Source of the DNA: Symbiodinium natans | Lineage: Eukaryota; Sar; Dinophyceae; Suessiales; Symbiodiniaceae | NCBI GenBank assembly: GCA_905221605.1 | Contig: CAJNDS010002484.1 | Span: 62,001-126,000, forward strand | Length of the DNA stretch: 64,000 nucleotides | Reading direction: 5' to 3' | In this document: piece by piece, positions 18,069 through 39,913 of the stretch | Layout of the letters: every line of letters starts with the position of its first letter | Position numbering within the stretch: position 1 is the stretch's first letter | Position numbers and translations under genes: made by a program | Notes under the pieces: model-generated | Databases searched by the model: none | Told to the model about the DNA's origin: nothing | Seen by the model: the letters and a program-made list of their open reading frames with translations, nothing else

Positions 18069-18522
18069 CGCAGCCAAACAGCGACTTTTTCACGCAGGCT
18101 GAAAAAAGAACACGCATACACAGATAGCAAAGAGAAACAAATGAAAATAAGAACAACCAGAAATTCGCAGTTCGTAATGGCGTGCGGCTAGGCCTAGAAC
18201 CGCTGGGCATGAGATTTGCGTGCCATATGTAGGTGTAAATATGTATTTTTGTATTACGATATTTATATTCGCTCTTTTTAAGCAATAAGAAAAACCCAAA
18301 GCTAAATAGACCCTAAAGGCGGCGGGCTCATATTGGTATTGATGCACGAGGCGCACATTACACCACATATAAGCAAGGTACGGTGCATCAACAGACTGTC
18401 ACCCACAACAACATCCCCTCCACAATTCCCACCCAAGAAAAGGCACTGCGCATTTATGTCTACGATCGGCAACCTGCTGTCTACCATTGCTTCTATGGGG
18501 TCCATCGGGACCCTTTGCCCCT
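18069..18522. other. unique leader upstream of the LINE-like ORF
   Basis: No tandem repeat and no clear gene. It probably holds the 5' end or promoter of the element beginning at 18523, but no motif I can name marks it. Confidence 0.4.
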
Positions 18523-21500
18523 ATGACGACGATTCGTGACGTGGTGATCAAGGCAAGGTCTACGACCTTCCTTGATCACCTCAATGCCTATGTTGCTTGT
18601 CGTAGACATCGCGCACGTGTCAGATCCCTCAACAGCATTCTCCTTGCCTACAACCTGCCACTCACCTATCCCACAACACGTGAGCTGAAGCTTGCTCTCA
18701 TGGCCAATGACAGCCGACCTTTTAACCTAATCGCTGCTATCAATCTTCAGCTCCCGACAGAAGAGCTTGAACTTGCACTGAATCTCATAGCTGACAGGCT
18801 TGTTCCTTACTTCGACACGATCCCAAAGGAGCCGTGCAAGCTGCAGGCTGTCGTTAGTTGGAACGTTACCTCGCTGTGTACCTTCGACACTATTGGCCTT
18901 GCCAAGCTTCGTACCATTGGTGCGTTGGCTCACCAAACGCCCGTGCTTTTGCAGGAAACCAAATGGAATGCTGCCTGTTTACACCGATTCAGACAGGCAA
19001 CAGCCAGAATAAATACGATTGCCTCTCTCGCTATTTGGAAGGAATCTGGACACTCTGGAGGAGTTGCTGTCTGTTTGCCACAGGACTATAAAGTCGTAGA
19101 AACTGTTGACCTTGTGCCTGGTTTTGCCCTTGCCGTGCTGGTCAGATTTCGGTCTGTCTGCTACTGGCTCCTGTCGGTTTATTGGCACCCTGATCAATGG
19201 GGGAAGCTTTTCCCTGCACTTAGTGCTTTTGTCAAGGATGCAACTCATGTGGTTGTCCTTGGGGGGGACTTCAATGCTGTTAATCAGCAGAAGGAGGGTG
19301 AGTATGCACATCTCCTTGCTCAAGGCGACATGATTGAATGCAAGTCTGACAGGCCAACTTTCGAGCAAGGCTCTACCTGCAGTCACCTTGACCATTACCT
19401 TATTTCCAGTTCGCTGTACTTGTCCGCCAAGATCTGTTCTGTCTCTTGGAAGCACAAAAAAGTAACTGGAGGACATCACTTGGTAAAGATTCGGTTTCGG
19501 CCGAAGCATAAGCTTGACAAAGATGTCCCGGCGATACCTGTTCGGACAGTTCCTGCTGCGGCTTTTTCTGTTCCACCTGCGACTACTGACTTGCCTGGCA
19601 TCGAGGCTGCGGAGACTAGCCCTTCGCACCTTCTTCTTCGTAAACTAATTAATTGCACTAAAGCCCGCTTGATTGAAGAGCAGAACAATGGTCAAAAACT
19701 CTGCCCTTCTGACGCGCTCGTTGCACAAAAAGCCACATGTTTCTTGTGGCATGCCAACCTACGTGCCCAAACTGGAAACTCAATTGCTGCATTAATTAGG
19801 AAGTTGGTACGCCTTTTGAACAGGAGCACTGGTGCGACTGTCGGTGTCAACGCAAGCACCGTCACATCTTTAGCCAGGCATATCACCATACCCCCTTTCA
19901 CGCCGTCAGGTAATGGTTCAGCCGAGCTCCCGAGACATTGGCTTCAAGAAGCGCTTAATCGGCTACACCTTGGTGCAGAGCTGAAAACTGCCCCCTCACC
20001 AAGTCTTCGTTCCCTGGTTGCTCAAAGAGATTTGCAGGTTGATAAGTCTAAAATTAAGTGGCAGGCCTTCAGGAAAATCTGCCCTCGAATCATCGATTCG
20101 CAACAGGTCAGAAGCGAAAATGGCCAGCTGATCACATCTATGAGTCAGTTTGATGCTGCACTAAGGGCAACTAGAGCCTTTTGGCACCACTTCCCTTGTC
20201 AATACGATAACCAGTGGGACAAACTCCTACAGCCATATGCGCAAAGGGCCCCCTTCGTGCCGGCTGACTTACCAGATGAAAGCATCATCTTCAAGGCCAT
20301 TATTACCACCAAGGATTCTTCCCCGGGTCCCGATGGTGTGCCCTATGCCTTCTATAGGCAAAATCCGAGTTATTTTGCCAACTTACTTGGGGATCATATG
20401 TGGGAGATGTGCTTGTCTCAAGCTGATCATCCGCTTCAGGCCTTAGTCTTCATTCCCAAGGCAGACAAGGGTGCGTACGCGGACAACTACAGGCCACTAG
20501 ACATGCCCGATACTTGTGATCGAATCATTGACTCCGCAATCTACGCTGTCCTTGCTGAGTCTTTCAAAGACTCGCTACATCCTGCCCAGGCTCTTCTTAA
20601 TCACTTCAAAGAACCACAGGCAAATTATGCCCAAATGCAACACTACTTGGAGCTCAAAGATGCCCAGTACACAGTCATGCTTTCCGACTTTGCCAAGGCC
20701 TTTGAACGGGTGAATCCCTGGTGGGTACTACAGTGCTTAGCGGCAAGAGCTGCCCCTGCCTGGATCAAAGCTTACGTCATCCACCTTATGTTTGGGAGGC
20801 GCACCCAGCATAAAGTGCAAGGTTTCTTGCTCGAGCCTATCTCCATCCACCAAGGCCTTGCTATGGGAAGGGCGACTTCTGTTGTCCTTTTCTGTCTCGC
20901 CTTAGATCCCTTGATTTGGGCGCTGCACGACATTTCTTCCTTCATAAGACTAACGGCTTACATGGACGATAACAGCGCTGCCTCCAAAGGCCTGCATTGG
21001 GTGGAAAAGGCACAAAGAACTTTCGAACCAGCGCACAGCGCGGGGTTACAAGTTCTCCGTCACCAATGCTTCCAAGCAGGGTTTATTTCTTTACAGGTTC
21101 TCCCTGGGGATGTCAGAGCATGCATAGCCCAATTTGGTGTCGCTTGGATTGAGTCCAAACAGCTTCCACCGAGCAATACTCTCACCATTGGAGGTCCCTC
21201 ATTGCATCAAGCCTTGTGCTTACTGCTTCAACAGAACATCTACAGCCTCGACCAAGCAATGAGGATGTCCTTGACTAGGCTTGACGTGCGACACGGACTG
21301 CTCTTAGTAAGCGGAAGCAAATGCTACGTCCTGTCTAGCGATATGCTGCTTTGCATGTGCACACAACAGCAAAATTTCCAGGCTTTGTTGGCTTGCATTA
21401 TTGCATCGCCTTGCAAATGCAAATGCAAAACTTCTATTCTTACCAACAAGCCCTTCAAAACTGCTGATATCCTTCTCCTCGACATGACGCCTTGGGGGTC

Positions 21501-24500
21501 TAAGATTATTGCTGAGACTGCAACAATGTTGGGCTTTATCCTGCGTGGCCGCATGTCAAAATATGAATGGGAGCAAGCAACGTCTATTGATGAAATCCAT
21601 TGGGTTGGACAAAGGAAAATGTCAGATGTTTCCTTGCGCATGCTGATCCTTGATAAGGCCTTGTGCAATATGTTGAGAAGGAATAAACAAGCTCTTTCCC
21701 TTACTGCATCAATGCCTGCCAGGATTCAATTCCATACGGCCTTCATTGCCTCTTGCCCTCTTTTCTGCAATTCCTTGTACGCCTTCACCAAAAGGCATAT
21801 GCTCAAAGCACTAGCTATTGCCAGCTCAACTATTTTGAGGCGTCCCTGGATTCAGGCCAAACATATGGCGGGCGTTTTTGATTTTATCAAAGCGCCTAGG
21901 GCAATGGATCCTGAGATAGGCGCCATATTATCTAAAGTTGGCCTACTGCTGCGCTGGAGAGGCAAATGGGCTTTAAACGTTATCCTGCATGACCTTGAAA
22001 ATGCGCATGCGGCCAACCTTCCCTTCTACCATTCGTTGCTTGTGCAAGCCAGGCAAGCCATTCAGAAATCAGTCTCCTTAGGAGACTCACCAATCATTGA
22101 GCAGTTCAAAAGCAAGTGCCATGATGCCCTATCTGCTGCGCTGCCTCGAGTGAGCCCTCACTCAGGCGGTCGCAAGCTCAAGCAGGCGCAAATTGCGCTT
22201 AGAGCAGTGTTGCGCAATGCTGCTTGTGTTCAGGCGCAAGGATATCTTCGACAAAAAGTTGCGAACCATGCACATGAGAGACAGCTATGTGCCATTTTGC
22301 TTGCGCTAAACCTCCCGCCAAAGAACGTGGCTTCGGATGTCACTCGTTGCTACGCACTTAGATGGGCCATTGTTGAAGAAGCCGATGCATATTTTGTGTA
22401 CAGGCAATATGCCTCTAGGGACGAGCAATGTAGAGTCTGCCTACGCAAACAAACAGGGAAAGAGCTCTGGTATGACAATGGGTTCGGCAGCATGCCAGTC
22501 TGCAAACTCTGTCATCTCAACCAAAGCTGCCCTGATGACCTTGCCCATGCCATCAGCTGCATGCTGCCTTGCTGTGATGTTAACCAAGCACCACTCCTGC
22601 AATGTGCGGCAATGCCTGGTGCTCCGGCTAGAACTATTACTTACAGAGCAGCTATACCCAATGAGCACCAGTGTACTTTCATCCAAAGCCACTGCCTGCT
22701 CTGTGGGCTGGGAGCAAACACAACAGAGCATTGGCTTACGGCTTGTGTGGTCACCAAAGCCTCCCTCTTTATTGTCCTAGTCACATTGGGATATGCTGGC
22801 ACTGCCTCGTTTGACTCCCTGTGTCACACTGCCCTTCCTAAGATCAATGTTGAGGGAGGGATTGACAAGAAATTCTGTGCCGTCCTATTAGCATGGATTG
22901 CGACCATAAGAAGATATACTATGGAACAGCAATGCACCTGGCACCCTGGATGGTGTGAGACACCGCAACGGGCAAAACACATCAGTAACATACCCAAGCT
23001 CGCGTCACGTCTTTGGAATACCATCCCGAGGATGTTACTTCCCAAAGCATTACCGGCATGGTGGGTTGACACGGAACGCTGCAAGCCCTGTTGCAACGAC
23101 GGAGGACTCCATATTGAGGTCAAGCATCCCCTTTCTGCCTTAATTAAAGCAAGCGCCCAAGGTGTTACCGTCTCCCCCAGGAATGCCAATATAGGGGATG
23201 TCTTAGCAACATTAGATGCACAGCATTACTTGCTTGCACCTATGTATCAACAGACCCTTGGCGTCCCTAATGTTGCTCTATGGCCTAAAATGTGTCATTG
23301 CGGCAATCTGCACCTTAAAGTTACGGCATTAAGGCCAATCCCTGCAGGTACTCCACTTATTGTTGAGTTAAAACCTGTCAAAGATACCCACCTTGTTGCT
23401 CAATTTGACGGCAGCTGCCACGTGCAAGAAGGTATCGGTGGTGCGGGTGGTATCGTATGGTCGCCCGGACCAGTCCCGGTAATTCTTGAAACGATTGCCA
23501 TCCCACTCCAGCCTTGTCCAGATTCTATGTTTGCGGAAATATGCGCCGCTGACGCAACGTTAGACAAGGCATTATCTCTAGCTGCTAGCAATCAAATTAG
23601 GGAGGTTATCCTTCAGGGCGACTGCATCAACATTGTAAAGCACTTTGCTGGTGCCTTGAGACTACATAGGGAAGACCTAGTGCGAAAACTGGACAACATG
23701 TGGCAAAAGTTAACGCACACACCCATTACAGTGCATTGGTCATACGTCCCTCGCGTCGGCAACAAAGTCGCTGATCACCTGGCAGGAATCGCTGCTAACA
23801 GTCTCCGCTACGAAGCACCCCTTCATGAAGATGTCTTCTTTGACTCGGGTGAGGGTCAGCCTCATATGCAAATAAACACTGAGTGCTTTCCGCCTATTCT
23901 GTTGCCTTCCAAGCAATGGCACCTGCAAGCTATACAGGATTTGCATTCCGGAGCTGAAACTATTTCTCTTGAAGCCCCCCCACTTTGGAATCCGGAACTG
24001 CTTTTGCGGTTTTGCCTCTACAATCGGATCAAGCCTCCCCCCGAGCTTGATACAACGTGGCCAGGGCTGGTCCAGTATCGAAGGCCATCTTTGCACCCAC
24101 AGGGTAGATATTATGCCATACGGCACTGGCAAACGAGTAAAAGGCTAACACGTTTCTTGGCCATCGGACCGAACGCAATTGAAATCGACATGAAAGGTGC
24201 GCATTATACGCTTTTGCGCCTCCTTACATGTCACAGCCCTACTCACCCACCCCTCCCAACGTTGCTTGAAGCCAGGGAGCTATTTAGTAGTCACCTTGCA
24301 CGCGCGCCCAAAGCACAAACAGTGCAAACCAAGCACTTGTTGCAAAGAGCAGTTGGAATGGACAGCAATGCTTTCCTTCGGCATGTTTATGAAGGTAGTA
24401 TTGCTGCTTATGCCATCCCCCCTGCCTTGGCAAGTTTTCTTGCACATTTGGTGCAGGCCAAAGCTACCCTCCAGGTTATGATCCAGCAAGGAATCCCTTT

Positions 24501-25026
24501 TTACCAACCGGATGCAAGGGTCAACAACAGGAATTGGGCAACTTTTGCACTTGAAGCTGCGGAAAGCTTCGTAATGCGAAAAGGGCTCGCTGCAATGCTC
24601 CCGTACTGCGCAGGCACAGTGCTTTGGGTACATGACGGGGTGTACGTCAAAAATAGAAACGCAGTTTCGCCCTTCATCGAAGGGGCTACTGAAGCGTTGG
24701 TTCAGCTCATCCAGGTGGGGCAGCACTGTCATCCACAGGTCACACCTAACCAGGAATTTGCTAACCTACAAGATGTCTTTGCTATTACCACCACGAAGAG
24801 TGAATTTAATGCGGCAGTTGATGCGTTAAACGCTGCGGGTATCGCGTGTCATAGCCCTGCTCTCCCAAAGCGCCCAAAGGCAACCACCAACAGGGTGTCC
24901 AAGCGCCTTATCCTGGAAGTTCAGGATATACTAGAGGTCGAGAGGCAAAGAGACGATAAAAGGAGACGCGTTGATGTTACAGCTGTTCCGCGTAGGGGAT
25001 TGTGGGCAACACCCCCCTCGTTGTGA
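18523..25026 (+). CDS. LINE-type polyprotein: endonuclease, RT, zinc fingers, RNase H, DNA-polymerase-like C-terminus
   Basis: Non-LTR retrotransposon polyprotein, 2167 codons from ATG 18523 (the frame is open upstream without an earlier ATG). Domains in order: (1) APE-like endonuclease, residues ~95-325, with LLQET (E145), GGDFNAV (D249, N251), SHLDHY (D290) and GGHH (H318/H319). (2) Reverse transcriptase ~600-900, with motif A LSDFAKAF (D722), motif B QGLAMGRATS (from Q777) and motif C YMDD (D815, D816). (3) Cys-rich region from C1303, then CCHC C1391-x2-C-x8-H1403-x4-C1408. (4) RNase H ~1625-1760 with FDGS D1629, E1672, D1700 and D1751. (5) From ~1880, motifs like a family-A/TV-pol palm: IEIDMKGAHY (D1889), K1937, E2014 and WVHDG (D2038). 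All expected catalytic residues are present and the frame is intact, so the copy may be recent. LINE identity is firm; domain 5 is inference. The stop overlaps the next start. Confidence 0.93.
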   Translation: MTTIRDVVIKARSTTFLDHLNAYVACRRHRARVRSLNSILLAYNLPLTYPTTRELKLALMANDSRPFNLIAAINLQLPTEELELALNLIADRLVPYFDTIPKEPCKLQAVVSWNVTSLCTFDTIGLAKLRTIGALAHQTPVLLQETKWNAACLHRFRQATARINTIASLAIWKESGHSGGVAVCLPQDYKVVETVDLVPGFALAVLVRFRSVCYWLLSVYWHPDQWGKLFPALSAFVKDATHVVVLGGDFNAVNQQKEGEYAHLLAQGDMIECKSDRPTFEQGSTCSHLDHYLISSSLYLSAKICSVSWKHKKVTGGHHLVKIRFRPKHKLDKDVPAIPVRTVPAAAFSVPPATTDLPGIEAAETSPSHLLLRKLINCTKARLIEEQNNGQKLCPSDALVAQKATCFLWHANLRAQTGNSIAALIRKLVRLLNRSTGATVGVNASTVTSLARHITIPPFTPSGNGSAELPRHWLQEALNRLHLGAELKTAPSPSLRSLVAQRDLQVDKSKIKWQAFRKICPRIIDSQQVRSENGQLITSMSQFDAALRATRAFWHHFPCQYDNQWDKLLQPYAQRAPFVPADLPDESIIFKAIITTKDSSPGPDGVPYAFYRQNPSYFANLLGDHMWEMCLSQADHPLQALVFIPKADKGAYADNYRPLDMPDTCDRIIDSAIYAVLAESFKDSLHPAQALLNHFKEPQANYAQMQHYLELKDAQYTVMLSDFAKAFERVNPWWVLQCLAARAAPAWIKAYVIHLMFGRRTQHKVQGFLLEPISIHQGLAMGRATSVVLFCLALDPLIWALHDISSFIRLTAYMDDNSAASKGLHWVEKAQRTFEPAHSAGLQVLRHQCFQAGFISLQVLPGDVRACIAQFGVAWIESKQLPPSNTLTIGGPSLHQALCLLLQQNIYSLDQAMRMSLTRLDVRHGLLLVSGSKCYVLSSDMLLCMCTQQQNFQALLACIIASPCKCKCKTSILTNKPFKTADILLLDMTPWGSKIIAETATMLGFILRGRMSKYEWEQATSIDEIHWVGQRKMSDVSLRMLILDKALCNMLRRNKQALSLTASMPARIQFHTAFIASCPLFCNSLYAFTKRHMLKALAIASSTILRRPWIQAKHMAGVFDFIKAPRAMDPEIGAILSKVGLLLRWRGKWALNVILHDLENAHAANLPFYHSLLVQARQAIQKSVSLGDSPIIEQFKSKCHDALSAALPRVSPHSGGRKLKQAQIALRAVLRNAACVQAQGYLRQKVANHAHERQLCAILLALNLPPKNVASDVTRCYALRWAIVEEADAYFVYRQYASRDEQCRVCLRKQTGKELWYDNGFGSMPVCKLCHLNQSCPDDLAHAISCMLPCCDVNQAPLLQCAAMPGAPARTITYRAAIPNEHQCTFIQSHCLLCGLGANTTEHWLTACVVTKASLFIVLVTLGYAGTASFDSLCHTALPKINVEGGIDKKFCAVLLAWIATIRRYTMEQQCTWHPGWCETPQRAKHISNIPKLASRLWNTIPRMLLPKALPAWWVDTERCKPCCNDGGLHIEVKHPLSALIKASAQGVTVSPRNANIGDVLATLDAQHYLLAPMYQQTLGVPNVALWPKMCHCGNLHLKVTALRPIPAGTPLIVELKPVKDTHLVAQFDGSCHVQEGIGGAGGIVWSPGPVPVILETIAIPLQPCPDSMFAEICAADATLDKALSLAASNQIREVILQGDCINIVKHFAGALRLHREDLVRKLDNMWQKLTHTPITVHWSYVPRVGNKVADHLAGIAANSLRYEAPLHEDVFFDSGEGQPHMQINTECFPPILLPSKQWHLQAIQDLHSGAETISLEAPPLWNPELLLRFCLYNRIKPPPELDTTWPGLVQYRRPSLHPQGRYYAIRHWQTSKRLTRFLAIGPNAIEIDMKGAHYTLLRLLTCHSPTHPPLPTLLEARELFSSHLARAPKAQTVQTKHLLQRAVGMDSNAFLRHVYEGSIAAYAIPPALASFLAHLVQAKATLQVMIQQGIPFYQPDARVNNRNWATFALEAAESFVMRKGLAAMLPYCAGTVLWVHDGVYVKNRNAVSPFIEGATEALVQLIQVGQHCHPQVTPNQEFANLQDVFAITTTKSEFNAAVDALNAAGIACHSPALPKRPKATTNRVSKRLILEVQDILEVERQRDDKRRRVDVTAVPRRGLWATPPSL

Positions 25027-25028: not shown

Positions 25029-25700
25029 CGTGTAGTCCCCATTTTAACCACCCTCCCTCTTTCGGGATGGCGGCATCTTTGGCTCAGACCAGTTGTGAAC
25101 GCCCGGGCACAACCAAACATGCTGGCCGCCACACGCTGCCTCCTGGCTTGGCGTTACCATGAAGCCATTGGTAGTCATTCCAGCACAGCTGACTTCGAAC
25201 TCGCAGTTCTCCCTGCTGCAGCGGGAGCGATCCTCGTGGCTCTCTTAGAGGAAAGCAAGTCGAACGAAGCCCTTTCCCCGTACCATAAGGATCGTTTATA
25301 TCGAGGCGTCTCCTTTGGTAATCCACTGATCATTCACGAGATTGTCGAAGATCTGGATGAGGAAAAACTCCTACTTGCATGGACTCTCATTGAAGTCATT
25401 GCAAGGCTGGACGCTGCCACTCAACCTCGCGCTACCGTGTCAATGCTATGGAAAATAAGTGCACCAAATCTCCGTGCCATCTCGTGCGTTGGAGAACGTG
25501 CGCTTGCCCAATCACTTTCGGAGCACTTTTCTTTGACCCCCAAGTGGTCTTCACGAGTTGTCGGGGCTTTAATCGGGCACAAAACTGGATGGGGTAGGGT
25601 AGAGGCATTGCTCCAGGTCTTAACGCCAAGAGCAACAGTCATTGCCCGTGAACTGTGTGAGTGTGAACAATTCCCCTATCACTTCTTTTGGCCGTGGTAG
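25026..25700 (+). CDS. 224-residue ORF coupled to the LINE ORF, unknown family
   Basis: Begins at the ATG that overlaps the upstream stop. The protein is mixed helical and Leu/Ala/Glu-rich, with recurring LLAWR/LLLAWT segments (about residues 37 and 119) and acidic patches (VEDLDEEK). No catalytic motif, signal peptide or membrane segment is evident. The LLAWR/LLLAW words recur in the 29923-30615 product, so the two may be distant paralogues or share a helical repeat. Its position suggests it is expressed with the LINE polyprotein, for example as an accessory or RNA/protein-binding factor, but no function is assigned. Confidence 0.55.
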   Translation: MRVVPILTTLPLSGWRHLWLRPVVNARAQPNMLAATRCLLAWRYHEAIGSHSSTADFELAVLPAAAGAILVALLEESKSNEALSPYHKDRLYRGVSFGNPLIIHEIVEDLDEEKLLLAWTLIEVIARLDAATQPRATVSMLWKISAPNLRAISCVGERALAQSLSEHFSLTPKWSSRVVGALIGHKTGWGRVEALLQVLTPRATVIARELCECEQFPYHFFWPW

Positions 25701-26047: not shown

Positions 26048-26494
26048 ATGGCCTTCTGTCTGGATTTGGCGCCGGATCATCTTAGGAAGATTCTTGGCTC
26101 TTCCATCCATACTTCGCCCTGCCTCTTCTCGTATGACAACAAATTCTGCACCGTGGAGTCCAGTATCGCCTTTTGCATTATGCAGCTGGCTGGCACGGTC
26201 TCCATTCGTGCACACTTGGATGCCGATGTAAAGTCCTCCGAATTGGTTGGGGCTGCTCTCCAGCTTATCCACCGCTGTTGGTCCAAGGGACTTGCCCTCC
26301 AGTTAAGGGAGATAGATGGATGCGGATGCCATGAGTGGCAGCAATGGGGGTTGCAAACTCTGCGCGCTATGGGTTCAGTGAGTGTGGCGTGGCATAATGT
26401 ACTTGCTGGCCACATCGGGCAGGCGTATATAATTGCGCTCCCGGTAACATTGCATGCGTCTTGCAGAATTGCCACTACCACCCTGGGCAGCTAG
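26048..26494 (+). CDS. 148-residue ORF, unknown family
   Basis: ATG start, intact to TAG. Residues include several Cys/His (GCGCHEW) but no standard zinc-finger spacing. Its last 41 nt overlap the start of the 26454 ORF in another frame. It may be a real small gene or the frame-shifted N-terminal part of the following protein. I recognise no domain. Confidence 0.35.
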   Translation: MAFCLDLAPDHLRKILGSSIHTSPCLFSYDNKFCTVESSIAFCIMQLAGTVSIRAHLDADVKSSELVGAALQLIHRCWSKGLALQLREIDGCGCHEWQQWGLQTLRAMGSVSVAWHNVLAGHIGQAYIIALPVTLHASCRIATTTLGS

Positions 26495-27350
26495 TCTTCA
26501 CGCACCTCTTCTCGCATACCAAAGGTCACCTCCCACCCTGCTTGCTCGTGCCACCCACCATGGTTTTTGGCCTGGCGTTCTTAAACGCCCCTCTGGGCCC
26601 CTCCCAGCCGAGAATGGCACCGGTGCGCCACGAGTGCAAGAGTACCAGTTCACCGCCCAAACGGCCTGCGCCTTTCACGAACAGGGTCTTGGTGCGACCT
26701 GTGCTTTCGTTGGCCAAATCGCCACCTTCGTCCTCGTTGAAGTTGGACTCGAGTTTGGATGTATGCTCAAGTACACCATGTGTTGCTCACCCTACACGCA
26801 CGGAGAGTGGCACCTCCTCGACTCTACCCAACTAGGCGCTGAACTTCTTCCGCTCCTCCTGGAAAACATGGCCTTCCGACTTGATCTCAATCTGGTGCAA
26901 ATCCAAGTAGTTGTCCAGGGACTGACTTTTGCTGTCCCTCTAGTCAGCTTTCTTGTTGATTGGCCTGTTGGCACGGTCTTTATTGCTGTTGCCTTCCCCT
27001 CCTTTGAGCACATGGTAGAGGCGCATCCGGTCCTGGTAGGGTCTTACTTTAGTAGGCGCCTCTGTATTGTCAATCCGCCTGATGGGATGCTCCCTCTCAA
27101 TCTCACAATCGATCCAATGCTGCCGGTCCTAATGTTGCAAATACTAATTGTGCAACACATGCGGCAACGGAGTGGTTACCTTGAAAGTCGGGCTTTCGTA
27201 CTTTGCGATGAACAGGGCTTTGTTGCGGACACGTGCACCAAAATCCAAACAGCGTTCCATGAGGATGCGAGGGTGCTTCTTAAGTATAAGTGCCTCACCT
27301 TCGAAGGTCACCTGTTTAGATTGGTCTCCGCCTCCCACAGCCTACTTTGA
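26454..27350 (+). CDS. 298-residue ORF of a repeated family (LVDWPVGT motif)
   Basis: ATG start with a continuous frame. The middle part has the segments GCMLKYTMCCSPY, ELLPLLLENM and FLVDWPVGTVF (DNA 26950-26977). These recur in the same order on the minus strand at 27891-28647, which makes this a genuine protein family and not a chance frame. The protein is hydrophobic in patches (VLMLQILIV near residue 220) but lacks a clear transmembrane signature. It lies on the same strand downstream of the LINE ORF, suggesting it belongs to the same or a nested mobile element. Function unknown. It ends in TGATG, but the following frame is only ten codons. Confidence 0.6.
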   Translation: MRLAELPLPPWAASLHAPLLAYQRSPPTLLARATHHGFWPGVLKRPSGPLPAENGTGAPRVQEYQFTAQTACAFHEQGLGATCAFVGQIATFVLVEVGLEFGCMLKYTMCCSPYTHGEWHLLDSTQLGAELLPLLLENMAFRLDLNLVQIQVVVQGLTFAVPLVSFLVDWPVGTVFIAVAFPSFEHMVEAHPVLVGSYFSRRLCIVNPPDGMLPLNLTIDPMLPVLMLQILIVQHMRQRSGYLESRAFVLCDEQGFVADTCTKIQTAFHEDARVLLKYKCLTFEGHLFRLVSASHSLL

Positions 27351-27890
27351 TGCTAGGACGGCTGGCTTTGCTGCATTGGTAACGCCTTCTTGCCGCCTTT
27401 TGGCTCACACTAGCGTAGTAGAGCTTTGGCTCATGGGAGTCTGAGGCTGCCCCGCGACGTCACTTTCCTGCCGCCACACTATACGACTCGTTGCCTTGCG
27501 CCAACTTGAGCATGTCAACAGAGGAAGATTGCCTTGACAGCGACCCAAGGCAGCTTGAGTACGCCCGTACTCTTGCTCTGCCGCAAGCTCTGTCCTTGGA
27601 TTTGTCCCCGGTGGCCTTGACGCTGGTCCTAGGCAATGACCCTCTAATTCCTCTTTGCGGAGGGGAGAGGACCCTGTGCAAAGACTGACATCGTCAGTCG
27701 CGCAACGCCTTCGGGAAGGCGGTGGACTACCTCGGATCTACAGAGTTGACCTGAGCCAGCACTGCACAGCACCCATGAAAAAGTCCCGCCAACACATTCC
27801 CCAGAATGAAAAACCGCGAAAGCAGTGTGAAACTGGGAACGAGACCCTCATGCTTCCAAGGCGTGAAGGAGCGGGGTCCCCACTGCATTT
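27351..27890. other. no gene seen
   Basis: Between the two opposed LVDWPVGT family members. Short frames only; at most a decayed remainder of the preceding ORF. Confidence 0.35.
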
Positions 27891-28647
27891 TCAGGCGTAT
27901 GTTTGCATTCGAAGCAAAAGCTCGGAGTACTGCCGACGCAGGACTCGCAACTGAACAGCCCTTGCAGCCTGGAGATCATTGTAGGCATATACAGTGAACG
28001 GTGTGCCCACCGGCCAATCTACCAGAGCACAGCACGGAGGGACAGGTAGGTGACCAAGTTGCGAAACAGCGAAGACCCCAAGGCGGTTCGGACACAAAGC
28101 ACACAAGGCAGGGAAAAGTTGAGTGGTAAGTTGGAGAGTATCCCCTTCAAGAGCTTCTTGTCGAAAGGGGGCAACGCACCAAACGATTTGAATCATACAG
28201 CCTTGATGTTGAGTAACGCGCACAAGGGTGAGATTGGCAACAAGGCCAGCATACCTTACCCTACCAACGAGAAGCTGCTTCACGGACTGACCAAGGGGAG
28301 GCACGTGACGTTGCAAGGTGGACTGTGTGCGAGGCCATAGACTGCCACAGTGGCCTTCTGCCTGCGGGTGAGGAGAATCCATGGGCAGGCCAATGATGCT
28401 CATGAGCAAGTCGCCCGCCCAGGAGCTGCCTTGCAGGAGTTTGATAAGCAAAGTCAGCTGTAAATCGGAGGAAGCGGAGGCTCGCGAGTGGGAAGTCTCC
28501 AACTGCATGGACGTCGTAAGTGCATTCGTCAAGAGGCGTGACTCCAAAGAACGCTCCGGCGTGTTCCCCCGTGGGAATCGCAAAGAAGGGCATTCCCCTC
28601 AAACCTTCCAAGAGAAGTCGGAACCAGTGCGAATTAACTGAATGCAA
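27891..28647 (-). pseudogene. inverted, frame-broken paralogue of the LVDWPVGT family
   Basis: Two overlapping minus frames together cover the family. 28647 to ~28380 reads MPFFAIPTGEHAGAFFG and so on. A different frame continues to 27891 with GCMIQIVWCVAPF, LQLTTQLFPAL and ALVDWPVGTPF. These match GCMLKYTMCCSPY, TQLGAELLPLL and FLVDWPVGTVF of the + strand ORF at 26454-27350. The break between frames near 28380-28450 indicates an indel, so this copy is probably dead. Frames further upstream on minus (to about 29362) may be its N-terminal remains. Confidence 0.6.
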
Positions 28648-29502
28648 GACAGGCCACAGACTGAATAGCCAATTGGCACCAATGAAGCATGTGCCAATGA
28701 AAGTCTAAGCCGCCCGAGACCTGGCCGATCTTTATTTCTTGTCTTATGCTCCACTAAGCCAAGCCTGGAAGGCATCAGCGGCATTTTCAGTGCCATGAAC
28801 ACTCTGCAATGGCAGGGCAAGAACAACCTTGATGTTGCAGAGATCCACAACTCAGAAAGGCATCACTGACATGGTTGAGGCATCCAGCCCTCAATCCCTA
28901 TGGAACGTCTTGCTCCGCTGCTTGTGATTGTCTCGCAGTTGAGCCCTACGTCGGCCTGCTGTAGGCCCGCCTCCAGGCACAGCGATAGACACCTTCACGA
29001 CTGCCCATTGGATGCATTGCGTTGTATCCTCTTTGATGCGTGCACTGTGTGCTTGAGCCTGTGGTTGATTATAGAGCCGAACGAAGGCCTCTCCGAGCCT
29101 CCACAAGTGTACCTCTGGCGGCAACAACAGTCGAATTGGGGTTGTTGTTGTACTCGCCTCCCTCACGTCGCTCCTGGAGTCGAGAATTATAGGTTGCCCT
29201 CCCGTCCCTGAGGGAAACCGCGAGAGTGGCTGCTGTTTGTCGGCGCTGGGGAGGTATCATCCGGGCTTGGGCATCGCGCAGGCGTTTTGTGACATCAACG
29301 TCAACCTTCGCCAGTACACAGCGTGTTGTGCCCGTCGTGCGTGTGAACTGCACCCATTTCAAATTGCAGCTTCATGTTACGGAATTGATGGACTTGGGTG
29401 TCGCGCGAATGCGAAACAATGCTTTACTCTTCCCTCCTCTAGCCAGGCCAGGACCCCAGTCACTGGGCAAGTGGAGGAGGACGGTTGAGTTGCTCATGCC
29501 AC
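28648..29502. other. possible upstream remains of the minus-strand paralogue
   Basis: Several 80-100-codon minus frames with mixed composition. No recognisable domain, no repeat. Confidence 0.3.
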
Positions 29503-33843: not shown

Positions 33844-33967
33844 CCTCAATTGGTACTGCGTTGAGCCGAGCCCTGCAGCTTGTCATCATGCCCAGTGAAG
33901 TGCCGAAAGGGCAGTGGACCAGTGCGGCTCCAGCTCTTCCCTGGGGTCCTCATGTTTTGGAACAAAG

Positions 33968-36900
33968 ATGCCCTATCTTCCTGCAGGGCCACCCCGAAAT
34001 GGCGCAGTCGACCCAATGCCGCTTGCTCTTCTTGCTGCCGCTGCGCATGCTTGGCTGGCCCAGGCGGATCTGCCGTGGCCTCTCTTCGCCGCAGACATAA
34101 AGGTCACGCCGTTGGGCCTCAGTCAATACTGGGATGATGGACTAGCCATGCGTGTGCAACAAGCCCTGGCAGCCTTTGCCTTTCCTGCCTACCAGTACCC
34201 GCCTCCAAAGCCTCACCTAACCCCCTTAGGGGAATGTCGGTCGCTCTTCATTAGCGGGATGAATGGGAAGGCCGAGAATACGCCCCCCACTGTGTCGGGT
34301 AGCATCATTCACACAGCCAATTCCTATGCACTCACTGGCTTAGAAATGGAAACAGTCCGGGACAACCAGGGCCAAAAGGTCCGATATGAGGACACACAAC
34401 GCCCGTTGTTGCTTTCGACCAGCGGTAATGCCGCACATGCATTGTTGCTCCTGCCCCAAGCCGCCCAGCTATGGGCACGTGCTCTGTACCCTCAGGTCGA
34501 AGGATGCGGTCTGCCAGCGGCGGTTCGTGCTAGAATCAGCTCGGTAGAAGCCTCCCTGACAATGTGCCCTGCCCTGGCTCACTTGCACATGCCACATACT
34601 GCTGCGCTGACCGCTCTGCATGTGGGCCTCGCCGCGGGTAGAGCTGGCGAGTGCAAACTGTGCGTTACGGGGTTCTCTGCTGGGTCGTATACGGGCGCTG
34701 CTGTGGCTATCGCTTGGCATGAGCGCCAAAAGCTTCCTGACTGCAAGGGCGATTTTGTCCACATCAAGGCACGTTTGGGCGGCGTTGCCATGCCACGGGC
34801 CATGCTGCAATATATCCTGGGTTCGGAATTGCGGCACGCTGTTAGTCTTGTCCATCATGAGAGCGACCAGCTTTGTATCTTCCGGCCCAGCCAGGCAGCA
34901 AGGACGCAAGCGATTGGCGCGGGAGCGCGTCTCTACTACTTCACTGGACCTGAGTCACTTGGCAGTGGTGGACACTCTTATGGTCACGTTGTCCACAGTG
35001 AAGAGCTATTCCAGCTCACGCCGGGGGATTATGTGCATAAGGAATTGACTAAAAAGATTTGTGGCTTGGCCGACCCCCGGATGGATCGCACAGTGCGAGC
35101 AGGTTTGATGGGGGTTGCGTGTGGCTCTGTCCAGCTTTCGGATAAGTCTAAAACTTTCATCAACTCCGTGCTGGGACGGCAAATCAGACGCCCCGATCTG
35201 GAGGCTTTTCTCCGGATACCTTCCGCTGAGAACCGGAGCATTGCAAGTCTCCGTGCTGACTGTACCCAAGTCCTCCTGACGGATGCCAAGCCGCATCTGG
35301 CTGATTTGCCGCCCCCGTATCATGAACTTGGTCCCACGATGAAACTAGTTTTGGGTATGTGGCTCCCCCACCTGTCGTTAGAGCGCCTGGTTGACATGCT
35401 GGGTTATCAGTTTTTAGCCATGGCCTCGGAAGCAGAAATCGAGGAGGAGCCCTCGGAACAGTATCACTACCCAGAGCAAGCTGCGGTCAAGCGGGCCGCC
35501 ACCCCTGTGGCGATAAAGCCCGGCACGCATACATGGCCAATCTGCCTTCTCCATCGAGTTTACCCAAGGGCATCGGTCATGCTCCTTACACCGGAGTTGG
35601 CGGATGTCCCTGACTGGGCTACAAAGTGGTTTGCTGTCGCTGGTAAAGTGCCGGCCAAGGGCACTGCTTTGCTGGTTACCTTGAGAGAAGACAAGGGGGA
35701 TGTGGCCTACCCAGGCATGTTTATAGAGCTCCTTGCCCCGAAGAAGCTTTTCACCGGCCCTGGAGAAAGTAAGGCCATGCAGCCAGTCAATATAACCATT
35801 GCCCTGCTCTTGACTGATGAACAGCACAACCAATTCGCGCAACGACCCTCACTGCCGAGAGTCAGCCAGCTTGAGGTTCTGCCCGGAGGAGCCTCTACCC
35901 CGCTTTGGGATGCTCTGTTACACATGCCTAGGGAAAGGCAGCATGTTGCATTGGGCGTTCCGCTAGAAGACTCGCCTCTTGATGCCATCCGGCAGCCACT
36001 GCGGTTGCCGGGCTTTCTCACAGATTTAGTGCTTGTCCTCCTTATCGGGCTAGTGGTGAGAGGGAACTGGCGCGACACATGGGCACAGCTCATTCACCCG
36101 GAGGTCTGCCAAGTCTTCAGAGGCAAGCACGAAACGCAAGCTGCGCAGGCATCGCTTACTGCGGGTCCGGGGGCTTCCAACCCCTTGCAAAGCTTCCTCA
36201 ACCTTTGGCTTGCGGAGGAACAATCCTATCGCAAAGAATGGACGCCAACGCTGCTGAGTGGCGTGTTAGCTACGCTGCCTGACTCTCCGCTGCCCGGCCA
36301 AGAGGACGCCCGGACTCCTGCGCTGTGGCATGCGGAGTGTCTACGCCTGTCCCATGACTCGTTGAGCAACGAGCACGATCCGAGGACTCGAGCCAGCATC
36401 TTTGCGCTCGCGGTTGGTCCCGCCTTCCTTACGTGCCTCTGTGATACCTTTTGGGGGGCGGACGGACACCTGGCAGCGCTGCTGGGAGCGTGCTCGTACG
36501 GCCTGGCCGCTAATCGTACTTCTGTATTCATAACGGGTGCGCCCGGCAGCGGGAAGACACGATCCTGCGCGTTTCTAGGAGTACTCCTTGCGTGCCTGAC
36601 GAGCCGGCTCACCCTGTACACCGCTCATGGCAATGAATCGGTTCGGGCCTATGTCGAAGCGGTTGATAGGCTCACGACTGCTAGCAATGAATTTGTTCGC
36701 AGCCGCATCGTTCGCATACCGGGTAACAAGGAGAAGGACACACATAAGCTCCCTTTTGATGTGCACGATTTGTACCGGGGGCTACTTGTAGCCACGACAC
36801 ATGGTACGATTGTGGCAAGGCTTAGCTTTCCCTACTCGCAGCTCATTAACCGTCTAAAGGATGTTGAGTTGCTCCTCCGAGATGAAGCCCAGCAATTGGG

Positions 36901-37210
36901 CACGCCTGGCTCCAACACCATTCTGGCGCACATCAAGCATGCACTTGATGTGATCACGATTTCGATGTCTTACATGGGACTCTTAACCATGTATTTTCCT
37001 TGTGAAGATTTCTTGTGGTGGGATGTTTTGTTTTGCCCAGAAGCTTTACAGTCATGTCTCATGTCATGTGCCGATGCAGCTGTGCTCGTGAGTATCAAAA
37101 GTTTTCATGGTAGCGGAGCGCTTGTGATCCAGCCTTTGGGGCCTCGGATTCACTTGTGCTCAGGGAGGCAGGACCCTTACCTCCCGGGGTCAGGACCCAA
37201 ACCCCATTAG
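33968..37210 (+). CDS. 1080-residue ORF: GFSAG hydrolase-like domain plus truncated SF1 helicase core
   Basis: ATG 33968; the frame is open further up from a GTG. Residues ~190-370 hold GFSAGSYTG (S237), a nucleophile-elbow-like G-x-S-x-G, then LVHH (H296/H297) and GGHSYGH (H336). This suggests an alpha/beta-hydrolase or esterase-like fold. Residues ~855-980 hold a P-loop, TGAPGSGKT (K863), and DEAQQ (D972), the Walker A and B pair of Upf1-like SF1 helicases. The remaining helicase motifs are absent. From about nt 36990 the frame continues in unrelated sequence to a stop at 37210, so the helicase is cut off, apparently where a gag-protease element has entered. A decayed relative of the GFSAG part lies at 46208-46892. 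The helicase half is likely; the hydrolase call is tentative. Confidence 0.65.
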   Translation: MPYLPAGPPRNGAVDPMPLALLAAAAHAWLAQADLPWPLFAADIKVTPLGLSQYWDDGLAMRVQQALAAFAFPAYQYPPPKPHLTPLGECRSLFISGMNGKAENTPPTVSGSIIHTANSYALTGLEMETVRDNQGQKVRYEDTQRPLLLSTSGNAAHALLLLPQAAQLWARALYPQVEGCGLPAAVRARISSVEASLTMCPALAHLHMPHTAALTALHVGLAAGRAGECKLCVTGFSAGSYTGAAVAIAWHERQKLPDCKGDFVHIKARLGGVAMPRAMLQYILGSELRHAVSLVHHESDQLCIFRPSQAARTQAIGAGARLYYFTGPESLGSGGHSYGHVVHSEELFQLTPGDYVHKELTKKICGLADPRMDRTVRAGLMGVACGSVQLSDKSKTFINSVLGRQIRRPDLEAFLRIPSAENRSIASLRADCTQVLLTDAKPHLADLPPPYHELGPTMKLVLGMWLPHLSLERLVDMLGYQFLAMASEAEIEEEPSEQYHYPEQAAVKRAATPVAIKPGTHTWPICLLHRVYPRASVMLLTPELADVPDWATKWFAVAGKVPAKGTALLVTLREDKGDVAYPGMFIELLAPKKLFTGPGESKAMQPVNITIALLLTDEQHNQFAQRPSLPRVSQLEVLPGGASTPLWDALLHMPRERQHVALGVPLEDSPLDAIRQPLRLPGFLTDLVLVLLIGLVVRGNWRDTWAQLIHPEVCQVFRGKHETQAAQASLTAGPGASNPLQSFLNLWLAEEQSYRKEWTPTLLSGVLATLPDSPLPGQEDARTPALWHAECLRLSHDSLSNEHDPRTRASIFALAVGPAFLTCLCDTFWGADGHLAALLGACSYGLAANRTSVFITGAPGSGKTRSCAFLGVLLACLTSRLTLYTAHGNESVRAYVEAVDRLTTASNEFVRSRIVRIPGNKEKDTHKLPFDVHDLYRGLLVATTHGTIVARLSFPYSQLINRLKDVELLLRDEAQQLGTPGSNTILAHIKHALDVITISMSYMGLLTMYFPCEDFLWWDVLFCPEALQSCLMSCADAAVLVSIKSFHGSGALVIQPLGPRIHLCSGRQDPYLPGSGPKPH

Positions 37211-37319
37211 TTGCTGCCGTAGTTTCCAGCCATAGCCTTCGTTTGCCTTGCCGAAGAAGGCTAGGCGGTTGCCAGCCTAATCTCCTCGAGACTCGTGTTG
37301 TCACCTACCAGCCACGGAG

Positions 37320-37835
37320 GTGTCACCAGAACTTGAGGAGCAGATTCAGTGTTTTCAGCTTTGGGACGACGAAAGAGTGTTGGATAAGCTTCGCAAAACT
37401 GTTCTTGAGTGGTACATCGAGCTTCAGTGTGGCAAACCTTGCACTCCGTCCTTGAGCATCCTGAGCTTCGAACGTCGACAGTTGCAGAGGCGGAAGGAGA
37501 AGAAAACCGAACTGAAAGGGATCCAGAACGCGCCAGAGATTATTGCTTACGGTTGCAAGTTGTTGAGTGGTGAGCGAGCCCTGCTTGAAGCATACCTTGC
37601 AGCAGTCTTCACCGTTCTCACTTTTGAGCCTAAGAAAATCTTGCGTGAGAGAAATTTCCAAGCATCGTCCTCCAGTTTCAGCAGAAACCTTGGTCCGTCT
37701 GGAGTGGAGTTTCAGTTATCCACTGATCCAGCATCGTCATCCAGTTTCAGCAGAAACCTTGGTCCGTCTGGAGTGGAGTACGATCTAGATAGTGACACGA
37801 GCATTGCATCCGAGACTTCCTTAGATTGGGAGTGA
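37320..37835 (+). CDS. 171-codon ORF without ATG, upstream of gag-protease
   Basis: Open from GTG 37320 to TGA 37835 with no in-frame ATG at all. It therefore uses a non-AUG start, or is an exon (CACCAG before 37332 could be an acceptor), or lies inside a longer transcript. The product is Glu/Lys/Leu-rich and helical at first (about 1-115). It then has a 69-bp direct duplication giving SSSFSRNLGPSGVE twice, and ends acidic. Its stop overlaps the ATG of the gag-protease ORF as TGATG. Confidence 0.5.
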   Translation: MSPELEEQIQCFQLWDDERVLDKLRKTVLEWYIELQCGKPCTPSLSILSFERRQLQRRKEKKTELKGIQNAPEIIAYGCKLLSGERALLEAYLAAVFTVLTFEPKKILRERNFQASSSSFSRNLGPSGVEFQLSTDPASSSSFSRNLGPSGVEYDLDSDTSIASETSLDWE

Positions 37836-37837
37836 TG
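37833..37837 (+). promoter_or_regulatory. TGATG stop-start overlap
   Basis: TGA 37833-37835 and ATG 37835-37837 share one base, identical to the junction at 25024-25028. It decides the start chosen for the gag-protease ORF. Confidence 0.5.
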
Positions 37838-39913
37838 ACCGACGGGAATGGAGCTGGGCCACATCCGCTAGCAAGCCCAGCACTTAGCCCTGTCCACAGC
37901 CCAACCGGCAGCGCCGGTCCAACAGATGGTGAGACTCGTCTTTTGGAGATTCTTGCAGGAATGCAGCAGAACCAGCAAGTGTTGACCGAGCTTCTGAGGA
38001 GCCAGTCTGAATCCCGCGCCGCAGCAGCCGCTGCGACCACATCCTACTCAGGTCTAGCGGCCAAAGACCTGAGCAAGGTGTTGAGGCATCCTTCAACCTT
38101 TTCTTGTCAGACCCGAGATGAGGAGCTGATCAAGTGGCCAGCATGGTCTTGGGAGTTTGAGCAGTATTTGGGAACCTTAGATAAGGAGTTTCAGGTGGAC
38201 TTCACTCGCTTGAAATCGAACCCGAAAACTGAAGTTCTCCCTGCACAGCTGAGCGCCACTGAGCTCGACAGGTCACGCATCATGTATGGCCTGCTTGCAT
38301 CGCTTTTGAACGACCGTCTGAAGCGTCTTCTTAAGACTGTGTCTGACAATAACGGGTACGAAGCATACCGCTTGATCTCGCTTGACCTTCGCCCTTCATC
38401 CCGCACCAGAGCCTTGGCCCTCATGCAGACAATCCACAATTGGCCTGTGTTCGACAACAAGCAAGGCCTCCTGACTCAAGTTGTTAGGCTTGAGCAGGCG
38501 ATGGCAGAGTATGACTCGATTGCATCGCAGGCCATGTCCGATGATCAGAAGGTTGTTTCGCTTCTGAGATGTTTAACAGGCCAACTTCGTCAGCATGTGA
38601 ACTTGACCATGGAAGACTCCTGGACATATGCCGAGTTGCGAAGTTTGGTTGCTCGATATGATGCTTCTTCGTCAAAGTGGAGTGCGTCTGTTGCAGCGAC
38701 TTATGGCCTGTCAGAGGGCAAAGGTGGTGTGCTTGTGAATGCGCCTGCAGCATCCAGTGAAGCCGTTCCAATGGAAATCGACCGTCTTCAAAAGGAGATT
38801 GATAGGCTAAGCAAAGGCAAGACTAAGAAGGGTGATAAGGGAGATAAAGGTGGTAAAAAAGGCAGATATGACAAGGGTAAGAAGGGTAAGGGTGATGGTA
38901 AGAAAGGGGATGGTAAGTCCAGGCCTCCGCCCAGCACAAACCCTAACCCTGCCGCAAACAAAACTTGTCATAATTGTGGCCGAAAGGGTCACTTTGCCCG
39001 AGACTGCCGATCCAAGCGAGTCAGACAGGTTGAAGACGCCGCTGTTGCTGACAGCAGCGCTGCACATGCTGACACAGCCGTGTCAGCTGCCCCTGCCAAG
39101 GCGAAACCTGCTGCAAAGCCCCAGGTGAGACGAGTCACCTACAACCTCGATGACTTTGATGAGTCAGCCGGAGGTGAGATCCGCATGGTGTCAGGTTGTG
39201 ATTCTTGTGTGGAGAGCCAAGACAAAGTAGACAGGCAAAGCAAGGAAGCTTCGGGTTTCTTTTGCAAGGCACTGAGCATCTTTTCACGTTGTGTGCCATC
39301 GAGGTGGTGCGTTTTCCACAATGCATTGCCGAGTGATGCACAGAGCGAGGCTGAGCACGCTTCGGGCGTGTGTCAGCGTGATGTGGCTGAGCACGCTTCG
39401 GGCGTGTGTCAGCGTGATGTGGTTGAGCACACTTCGGGTGTGACCTCGACCAGTGGATCAGTGCGCATGGTCCAGCAGAATGCCGAGCATGGCATGGAGA
39501 TCGAAGTCATAATTGACTCAGGTGCTGACGCCTCTTGTCTACCGCAAAACCTCAGCATGCTTGGAGTTTCCTCTGGAAGGCCATGGGAAGGTTTTCAAGA
39601 TGCCCAGGGGAATCAGCTGCTAGTTCACGGGACTAGGCGAGCTGAGCTGAGCTTCGGTGATCAGCCTGGATTCACCGAAACGTTCTTGGTTGCTCCCCAC
39701 ATCACCACACCTCTTCTTGCAGTTGGGAAGTTGTACCGCGCCGGATTCAGCATGGTGAACAAAAATGGAAACATGAGTCTTTGCAGCCCTAACGGAGAGA
39801 TCCAAAACCCGTTGCTGCGGGGTTCCCTGCCTGCTTGGGTGTATATCTCTGCTTGCGTCAAAGCAGCCATACATGACTACCTCCCCATCGGTAGGTGGCC
39901 AAGCGTGATGTGA
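37835..39913 (+). CDS. retrotransposon Gag-protease (CCHC knuckle, DSGAD protease)
   Basis: 692 residues. Residues ~75-310 are a Gag/capsid-like helical region (WSWEFEQYL, LLNDRLKRLL, LTQVVRLEQAM). Residues ~322-370 are Lys/Gly-rich and basic. The zinc knuckle is CHNCGRKGHFARDC, C378-C381-H386-C391. After a linker with a 36-bp tandem repeat (EHASGVCQRDVA, from about nt 39355), a retropepsin follows with IIDSGADASC (catalytic D561) and a C-terminal hydrophobic strand LLAVGKL. No integrase or reverse transcriptase follows, so the element is truncated or these were on a separate ORF. Residues from ~661 on come from an unrelated repeated segment (see 39815-40830). Copia-like polyproteins of dinoflagellates have this Gag style. 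It probably interrupts the helicase ORF upstream. Confidence 0.85.
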   Translation: MTDGNGAGPHPLASPALSPVHSPTGSAGPTDGETRLLEILAGMQQNQQVLTELLRSQSESRAAAAAATTSYSGLAAKDLSKVLRHPSTFSCQTRDEELIKWPAWSWEFEQYLGTLDKEFQVDFTRLKSNPKTEVLPAQLSATELDRSRIMYGLLASLLNDRLKRLLKTVSDNNGYEAYRLISLDLRPSSRTRALALMQTIHNWPVFDNKQGLLTQVVRLEQAMAEYDSIASQAMSDDQKVVSLLRCLTGQLRQHVNLTMEDSWTYAELRSLVARYDASSSKWSASVAATYGLSEGKGGVLVNAPAASSEAVPMEIDRLQKEIDRLSKGKTKKGDKGDKGGKKGRYDKGKKGKGDGKKGDGKSRPPPSTNPNPAANKTCHNCGRKGHFARDCRSKRVRQVEDAAVADSSAAHADTAVSAAPAKAKPAAKPQVRRVTYNLDDFDESAGGEIRMVSGCDSCVESQDKVDRQSKEASGFFCKALSIFSRCVPSRWCVFHNALPSDAQSEAEHASGVCQRDVAEHASGVCQRDVVEHTSGVTSTSGSVRMVQQNAEHGMEIEVIIDSGADASCLPQNLSMLGVSSGRPWEGFQDAQGNQLLVHGTRRAELSFGDQPGFTETFLVAPHITTPLLAVGKLYRAGFSMVNKNGNMSLCSPNGEIQNPLLRGSLPAWVYISACVKAAIHDYLPIGRWPSVM

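Follow-up and report, generated by a model that had tools for sequence, protein, structure and literature searches.

Does a retrotransposon carry, besides its reverse transcriptase (RT), a polymerase of its own for the second DNA strand? The question is raised by a long interspersed nuclear element (LINE) of the dinoflagellate Symbiodinium natans in the window analyzed here, a stretch of 64,000 nucleotides of contig C2172 in the 759-Mb genome assembly, in which an open reading frame (ORF) studied on the plus strand runs from a TTG at 18487 to 25026 and encodes 2167 residues when counted from the ATG at 18523. The synthesis of the second strand is a question of long standing, with the RT considered its likely agent, and the second half of LINE integration, including this step, was described as “very poorly understood” in 2019 (PMC6895275; papers given by PMC number are cited from excerpts of their text). 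The protein encoded by this frame, ORF2, probably ends in a superfamily-A-type DNA polymerase that copies the second strand, a reading based on the predicted fold, a conserved Asp pair, a hairpin Arg, a fingers Lys, and purifying selection.

Domain organization of the ORF2 polyprotein

The endonuclease, RT, and RNase H of ORF2 (Table 1) follow each other as in the LINEs with an RNase H such as I, R1, and similar elements, among which we know of none with a further polymerase. An EEP endonuclease ahead of a YxDD RT and many dispersed copies identify the element as a LINE, i.e., a non-long-terminal-repeat retrotransposon. The two endonuclease matches in Pfam (E 0.0017 and 0.003) are both below the Pfam cut-offs and lie within residues 140-307, where G248, D249, F250, and N251 are invariant among 13 aligned long polyproteins, as are Y813, D815, and D816 of the RT. 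A preliminary description of the window had read a 2167-residue LINE ORF with endonuclease, RT, and RNase H, in agreement with both the ORF reading and Pfam; it had also recognized additional residues C-terminal to the RNase H, but these number about 410 rather than about 300. A Pfam search of the C-terminus alone gave nothing beyond a chance match at E 0.1.

Homologs, conserved residues, and selection

The genome contains at least 111 matches to the C-terminal domain, the best 38 of which are stop-free and 98-100% identical over 387-388 of the 388 residues, and 12 fall in open frames of 2211-2217 codons. A protein search identified two relatives: P0003, a LINE polyprotein with about 25% identity over its length, and a second protein that belongs to the window family. 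The C-terminus of P0003 in turn retrieved 54 polyproteins at E 1.3e-252 to 5.5e-14, one of them P0003, with 49 bearing PF00078 or PF13456 and five without a Pfam mark, while profile A2 matched 37 of 7996 scored candidates (21 with PF13456, none with another Pfam domain, and 29 with the LINE-type motif A). Both searches take proteins of 0.55-1.75 times the query length, and stand-alone domains are therefore outside the reach of the P0003 search. Three groups were drawn by similarity and not from a tree: group I (the window family), group II (P0003 to P0020), and group III (P0021 to P0056), with mean identities between groups I and II of 36% for the RT, 29% for the RNase H, and 23% for the polymerase core. 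The P0003 domain hit 70 places in this assembly, all of them belonging to the window family and none to group II. As polyproteins of the P0003 type share the architecture and were not found in this genome, the fusion exists in other genomes too; the preliminary description had proposed to look for it in other dinoflagellate genomes. The window RT gave 129 matches in this genome, of which those beyond the family were few in number, incomplete, and some 45-49% identical across about 80-140 residues; with no close sister without the domain at hand, gain and loss are not distinguishable.

The core alignment of 13 long polyproteins of the three groups has 21 invariant columns among 260 (counting columns with at least 11 letters), namely Y1852, G1861, R1862, Y1864, Q1870, R1877, E1887, D1889, G1892, A1893, H1894, Y1895, R1899, R1918, K1937, E2011, E2014, W2035, H2037, D2038, and G2039. 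Although the core of the window protein is on average only 20-23% identical to those of the other polyproteins, these invariant columns, together with purifying selection in divergent copies, speak for conservation beyond chance. Several of them fall in what we take to be polymerase motifs A, B, and C. The motif A pattern E[IVL]D[IMLV]xGAHY is found in 56 of 56 polyproteins (P0001-P0056) and the HDG of motif C in 54, the remaining two (P0012 and P0020) stopping short of this motif, compared to 29 and 20, respectively, among 37 further database proteins that are mostly fragments. Both Asp are retained by three long proteins among these 37 that fall outside a strict pattern (P0064, P0066, and P0067, the last with NDG), and the residues at 1889 and 2038, on whose conservation the preliminary description had made its reading depend, are thus kept in homologs.

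The motif-A-like IEIDMKGAHY (D1889), K1937, the Glu helix (E2011, E2014), and H2037-D2038-G2039 sit where they had been placed beforehand; the inventory was correct but lacked the conserved hairpin Arg, R1862. Likewise, the motif-B-like Lys stands as K1937, but the Gly eight residues on, which had been paired with it, is a peculiarity of the window family (Asn or His in 19 of 20 representatives). The assignment of this Lys is less sure in the window family than in the other groups, and the fingers differ between groups. The hairpin motif GR-x8-Q-x-[ILVM]-P occurs in 28 of 29 representatives, with the one residue shorter window protein as the exception, and in no ORF of a control phage (104 examined). 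At identical spacing it is also carried by E. coli PolA (R668, Q677, and P680, numbered from the PolA sequence), and nine family-A polymerases include three with the exact pattern and five with a looser version.

The polymerase core is under firm purifying selection, slightly looser than the RNase H. Codons were compared between the window and 35 loci, one of which (L009) is the window itself, and most were too similar to inform (core ratio of nonsynonymous to synonymous divergence, dN/dS, from 0 to 0.30 or undefined). In L045, L046, and L048, core dN/dS was 0.07 (dS 1.43), 0.08 (dS 1.30), and 0.10 (dS 0.115), where the dS values above 1 are close to saturation, compared to 0.05, 0.04, and 0.02 for the RNase H and 0.16, 0.17, and 0.65 for the C-terminal tail.

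Predicted fold and links to known polymerases

Structure prediction yielded a family-A-type palm with fingers, whereas any fold other than a palm had been named beforehand as grounds for giving up the reading, and from these models the C-terminal domain almost certainly has a family-A polymerase fold. The models of two proteins that share about 20% identity are consistent with each other, and one superfamily fills the best 50 PDB structure matches each time; DNA polymerases account for 49 of these with the first model, which has T7 RNA polymerase at row 18, and for all 50 with the second. Polymerase theta, Taq, and T7 DNA polymerase were tied (Z differences <1), and virophage replication proteins were among the nearest viral folds. 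Likeness to superfamily A (E. coli Pol I, T7 gp5, and Pol theta) comprises this predicted fold and the shared hairpin GR...Q.(I/L)P, motif A Asp, motif-B Lys, and motif C His-Asp. In contrast to superfamily A, the LINE domain has HDG in place of HDE, Asn/His in place of the O-helix Tyr in groups II and III, a short N-terminus, no exonuclease, and a position within a LINE polyprotein.

At the level of sequence, the links from the domain to known polymerases are weak. None of 23 members matched PF00476, under which the domain is therefore not filed, and neither the window domain nor profile A2 retrieved a polymerase from Pfam, PHROG, or the PDB. The sole PDB sequence match of the A2 profile was an unrelated chain (E 0.28), and VHS, the best Pfam match of P0057 (E 7.6e-4, under the cut-off), was taken as chance. 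The profile-profile comparison suggested by the preliminary description was suggestive at best: hhalign against nine family-A polymerases gave a probability of 1.7% and P 0.029 with the hairpin and motif A correctly aligned, and a second set-up gave a different best stretch (P 0.048) that 5 of 200 block-shuffled controls equalled, as well as a senseless global alignment. An independent link is the phage family phrog_4756 (440 positions, without annotated function), to which 5 of 23 members gave matches at E<=1, with P0036 of group III best (E 7.4e-5) over the stretch from the Arg hairpin to the fingers, which P0061, P0062, and P0065 also match (E 0.08-0.6). Positions 226-331 of phrog_4756 align with the catalytic stretch, and this family may itself be a family-A-type polymerase.

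The preliminary description had likened the domain to both family-A and TV-Pol palms, and the predicted fold upholds the former, with points that speak against a plain TV-Pol label. The TV-Pol family (Iyer 2008, PMC2579912), including virophage and SCC CcPol proteins, shares with the LINE domain a minimal palm, fingers, an Arg hairpin, and a mobile-element setting. The hairpin Arg and two Asp that define TV-Pol in the excerpt of that paper are present, but an Arg four residues before the Lys, as in the RxxxK of the fingers, is found in 3 of 20 representatives and, unlike in TV-Pol, the domain is fused behind RT and RNase H. By RxxxK the domain falls outside the TV-Pol definition, although it may work in a TV-Pol-like manner. 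No D5-like helicase partner was found by Pfam, which misses other divergent domains here, in ORF2 or in ORF1 (searched as two pieces). A scan of cyanophage Ma-LMM01, a TV-Pol carrier (PMC2579912), found nothing (104 ORFs, 150 of 162 kb, best E 0.98), so that kinship with TV-Pol is argued from the predicted folds.

Proposed role and alternative explanations

In the proposed mechanism, the endonuclease would nick the target, the RT would build first-strand cDNA on the nicked target (target-primed reverse transcription), and the RNase H would strip the RNA. The C-terminal polymerase, kept at the site by tethering in the same chain, would then copy the cDNA into the second strand using the nicked top strand as primer, which would thereby not be left to the RT or a host polymerase. 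Top-strand nicking readies a primer (PMC7617806), and as the nick supplies it, a DNA-directed polymerase tethered to an RT would fit the second-strand step. The domain is very likely an active polymerase; that second-strand synthesis is its main job appears moderately probable.

Priming and end joining are both serious rivals to this role. As a primase-polymerase, the domain would initiate second-strand synthesis de novo with the cDNA as template, like CcPol with its partner in SCC elements; DNA priming is described for CcPol-MP, which is classed with the TV-Pols (PMC10061031), TV-Pols are predicted primase-polymerases that occur in stand-alone forms too (PMC2579912), and the virophage folds noted above point in the same direction. 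However, CcPol by itself only extends primers (PMC10061031), Pfam finds no single-stranded DNA-binding partner or helicase in ORF1 or ORF2, and a primer is already available from the nicked top strand. Priming is unlikely on this balance and is taken seriously because CcPol, which extends primers alone, primes with a partner (PMC10061031). The domain might alternatively act as polymerase theta does, linking the end of the new element with the target break via short annealed stretches and filling in, but the tie of Taq and T7 DNA polymerase with theta makes its rank uninformative and no target-site duplication was found at the borders of two copies, whose true ends are unsure; this use of the domain is considered distinctly unlikely.

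The remaining explanations dispense with a DNA polymerase. Retention of the palm for a structural or nucleic-acid-binding role would be in keeping with fingers that vary from group to group and with small proteins in CcPol-like operons that retain the fold without the Asp pair (PMC10061031), but it is improbable given both Asp in all 54 polyproteins reaching motif C and in the three further long ones, together with the low core dN/dS of the divergent copies. Transcription of the element by a T7-type DNA-directed RNA polymerase is still harder to credit: the superfamily includes both activities (PMC2579912) and T7 RNA polymerase is among the structure matches, but all others in both sets are DNA polymerases and a promoter-binding extension is not apparent. 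A spurious fold match, produced by a shallow alignment and helical content, is scarcely believable, as two such divergent proteins gave agreeing models within one superfamily and the residue spacing matches that of E. coli PolA.

Organization of the rest of the element

The copy in the window is not full-length, as three other copies align with it only from 18330 and extend beyond on both sides, two of them aligning through to 27712, where the contig of the third stops. Copy C2226 has an ORF1 of 2098 amino acids ahead of ORF2 (L077 and L080), with the ORF1 TGA overlapping the ORF2 ATG as ATGA; the overlap is also present in copy C224, in which ORF1 is cut short (two of three copies, C2241 being unreadable there), and supports the ATG at 18523 as start. 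The shared pieces sum to roughly 16 kb for the element. The ORF1 stretches LFDGCGISRAV, GSPCQDLTVAG, IFLENAGSM, and FGHVERKRKFF resemble what we take to be cytosine methyltransferase motifs; the whole of ORF1, scanned as two pieces, gave no match in Pfam, nor did ORF1 in the PDB, and PF00145 was not detected. SymbioLINE-Dnmt (de Mendoza 2018, PMC5890265) is likewise a dinoflagellate LINE with a large ORF1 before its RT ORF, but its ORF1 is a methyltransferase in the excerpt of that paper, compared to methyltransferase-like stretches here. The excerpted legend, jointly for LINE and DIRS elements, lists Exo_endo_phos, RVT_1, RNase_H, and Phage Integrase and no polymerase, and “polymerase” in the excerpted text refers to two enzymes for the polymerase chain reaction only (PMC5890265).

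Table 1. Features of the LINE copy in the window.
Feature	Position	Strand	Basis
ORF1 3' remnant	18330..18526	+	Window copy compared with three other copies
ORF2 polyprotein (endonuclease, RT, RNase H, predicted polymerase), 2167 aa	18523..25026	+	ORF reading, ATGA overlap with upstream ORF1
Endonuclease, Exo_endo_phos type, residues 140-307	18940..19443	+	Two weak Pfam matches, invariant GDFN residues
Reverse transcriptase RVT_1, residues 644-833	20452..21021	+	Pfam E 9.6e-13
RNase H (RVT_3), residues 1628-1754	23404..23784	+	Pfam E 1.2e-10
Predicted family-A-type polymerase core (hairpin, palm, fingers), residues ~1848-2108	24064..24846	+	Conservation, predicted fold, selection
G1861-R1862, hairpin arginine, counterpart of E. 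coli PolA R668 region	24103..24108	+	Alignment, spacing
Motif A, E1887 to R1899 including D1889	24181..24219	+	Pattern count, invariant columns
K1937, motif-B-like lysine	24331..24333	+	Lys in 20/20 representatives as aligned
E2011 to E2014, invariant Glu pair, helix preceding motif C	24553..24564	+	Invariant columns
Motif C, W2035-V-H-D2038-G2039	24625..24639	+	Pattern count, invariant columns
Basic C-terminal tail, low conservation	24847..25023	+	Alignment, codon comparison
Possible small ORF3, 193 aa	25119..25697	+	Reading frame, copy comparison

The possible ORF3 has a dN/dS of 0.26-0.45 in three divergent copies and is without a Pfam match; its coupling via TGATG was dropped, since a stop codon at 25065 is present in 31 of 35 loci, though absent from the window copy, itself among those compared. 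The 3' part holds more long open frames, including window 26454-27350 (298 codons, without Pfam match) and, in other copies, L074 1104-2471 (455 codons) and L075 2565-4034 (489 codons). Window 27713-28850 has the opposite orientation in two other copies (L075 and L076). In copy C2241 (L082, L078) the element's C-T rich 5' end seems to occur a second time immediately upstream, and a portion of ORF1 lies in reverse orientation. Further along, window 33914-39913 contains long open frames with a zinc knuckle (E 4.2e-6) and a match to AAA that is weak and under the cut-off (E 1.1e-4), and is perhaps another mobile element. What we take to be the 21-base spliced-leader sequence has 205 exact occurrences in the genome, compared to 0 for the reversed control, as fits a dinoflagellate.

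Origin and significance

Pfam DNA_pol_A occurs at one place in this genome, a classical PolA by sequence. A classical family-A polymerase exon lies at G000 C556:39294-39587 (L073, a locus that is partly N), with GRLSTRSPNLQ, DYGQLE, and RRRAKTLNFSLLYG, and is clearly distinct from the LINE domain. Dinoflagellate polinton-like viruses, the nearness of retrotransposons to such viruses, and PolA-helicase fusions in related viruses have been described (PMC12721341), which makes a viral donor thinkable. Profile A3, one short pattern each, gave 4 and 2 pattern stretches on IMG/VR and GTDB contigs, respectively, and no relative, and the A2 protein search did not find a viral donor among its 37 matches. 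The literature matches listed, which cover titles and abstract openings with subscription journals mostly outside, include no retrotransposon with a family-A polymerase. A single chain with every enzyme needed to convert the element's RNA into double-stranded DNA at the target, namely endonuclease, RT, RNase H, and, for the second strand, a separate DNA-directed family-A polymerase (perhaps a primase), the last of virophage- or polinton-like origin long ago and selected in several dinoflagellate genomes, is tentatively put forward as a possible history.

If the domain is active, the LINE could finish copying itself into DNA with no need for a host polymerase. If the reading is true, the two strand syntheses would be split into two separately removable active sites, rendering the question of second-strand synthesis testable, and two polymerase lineages, RT and family A, would be united in one retroelement protein. 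It would also hint at exchange between retrotransposons and the small DNA viruses of protists.

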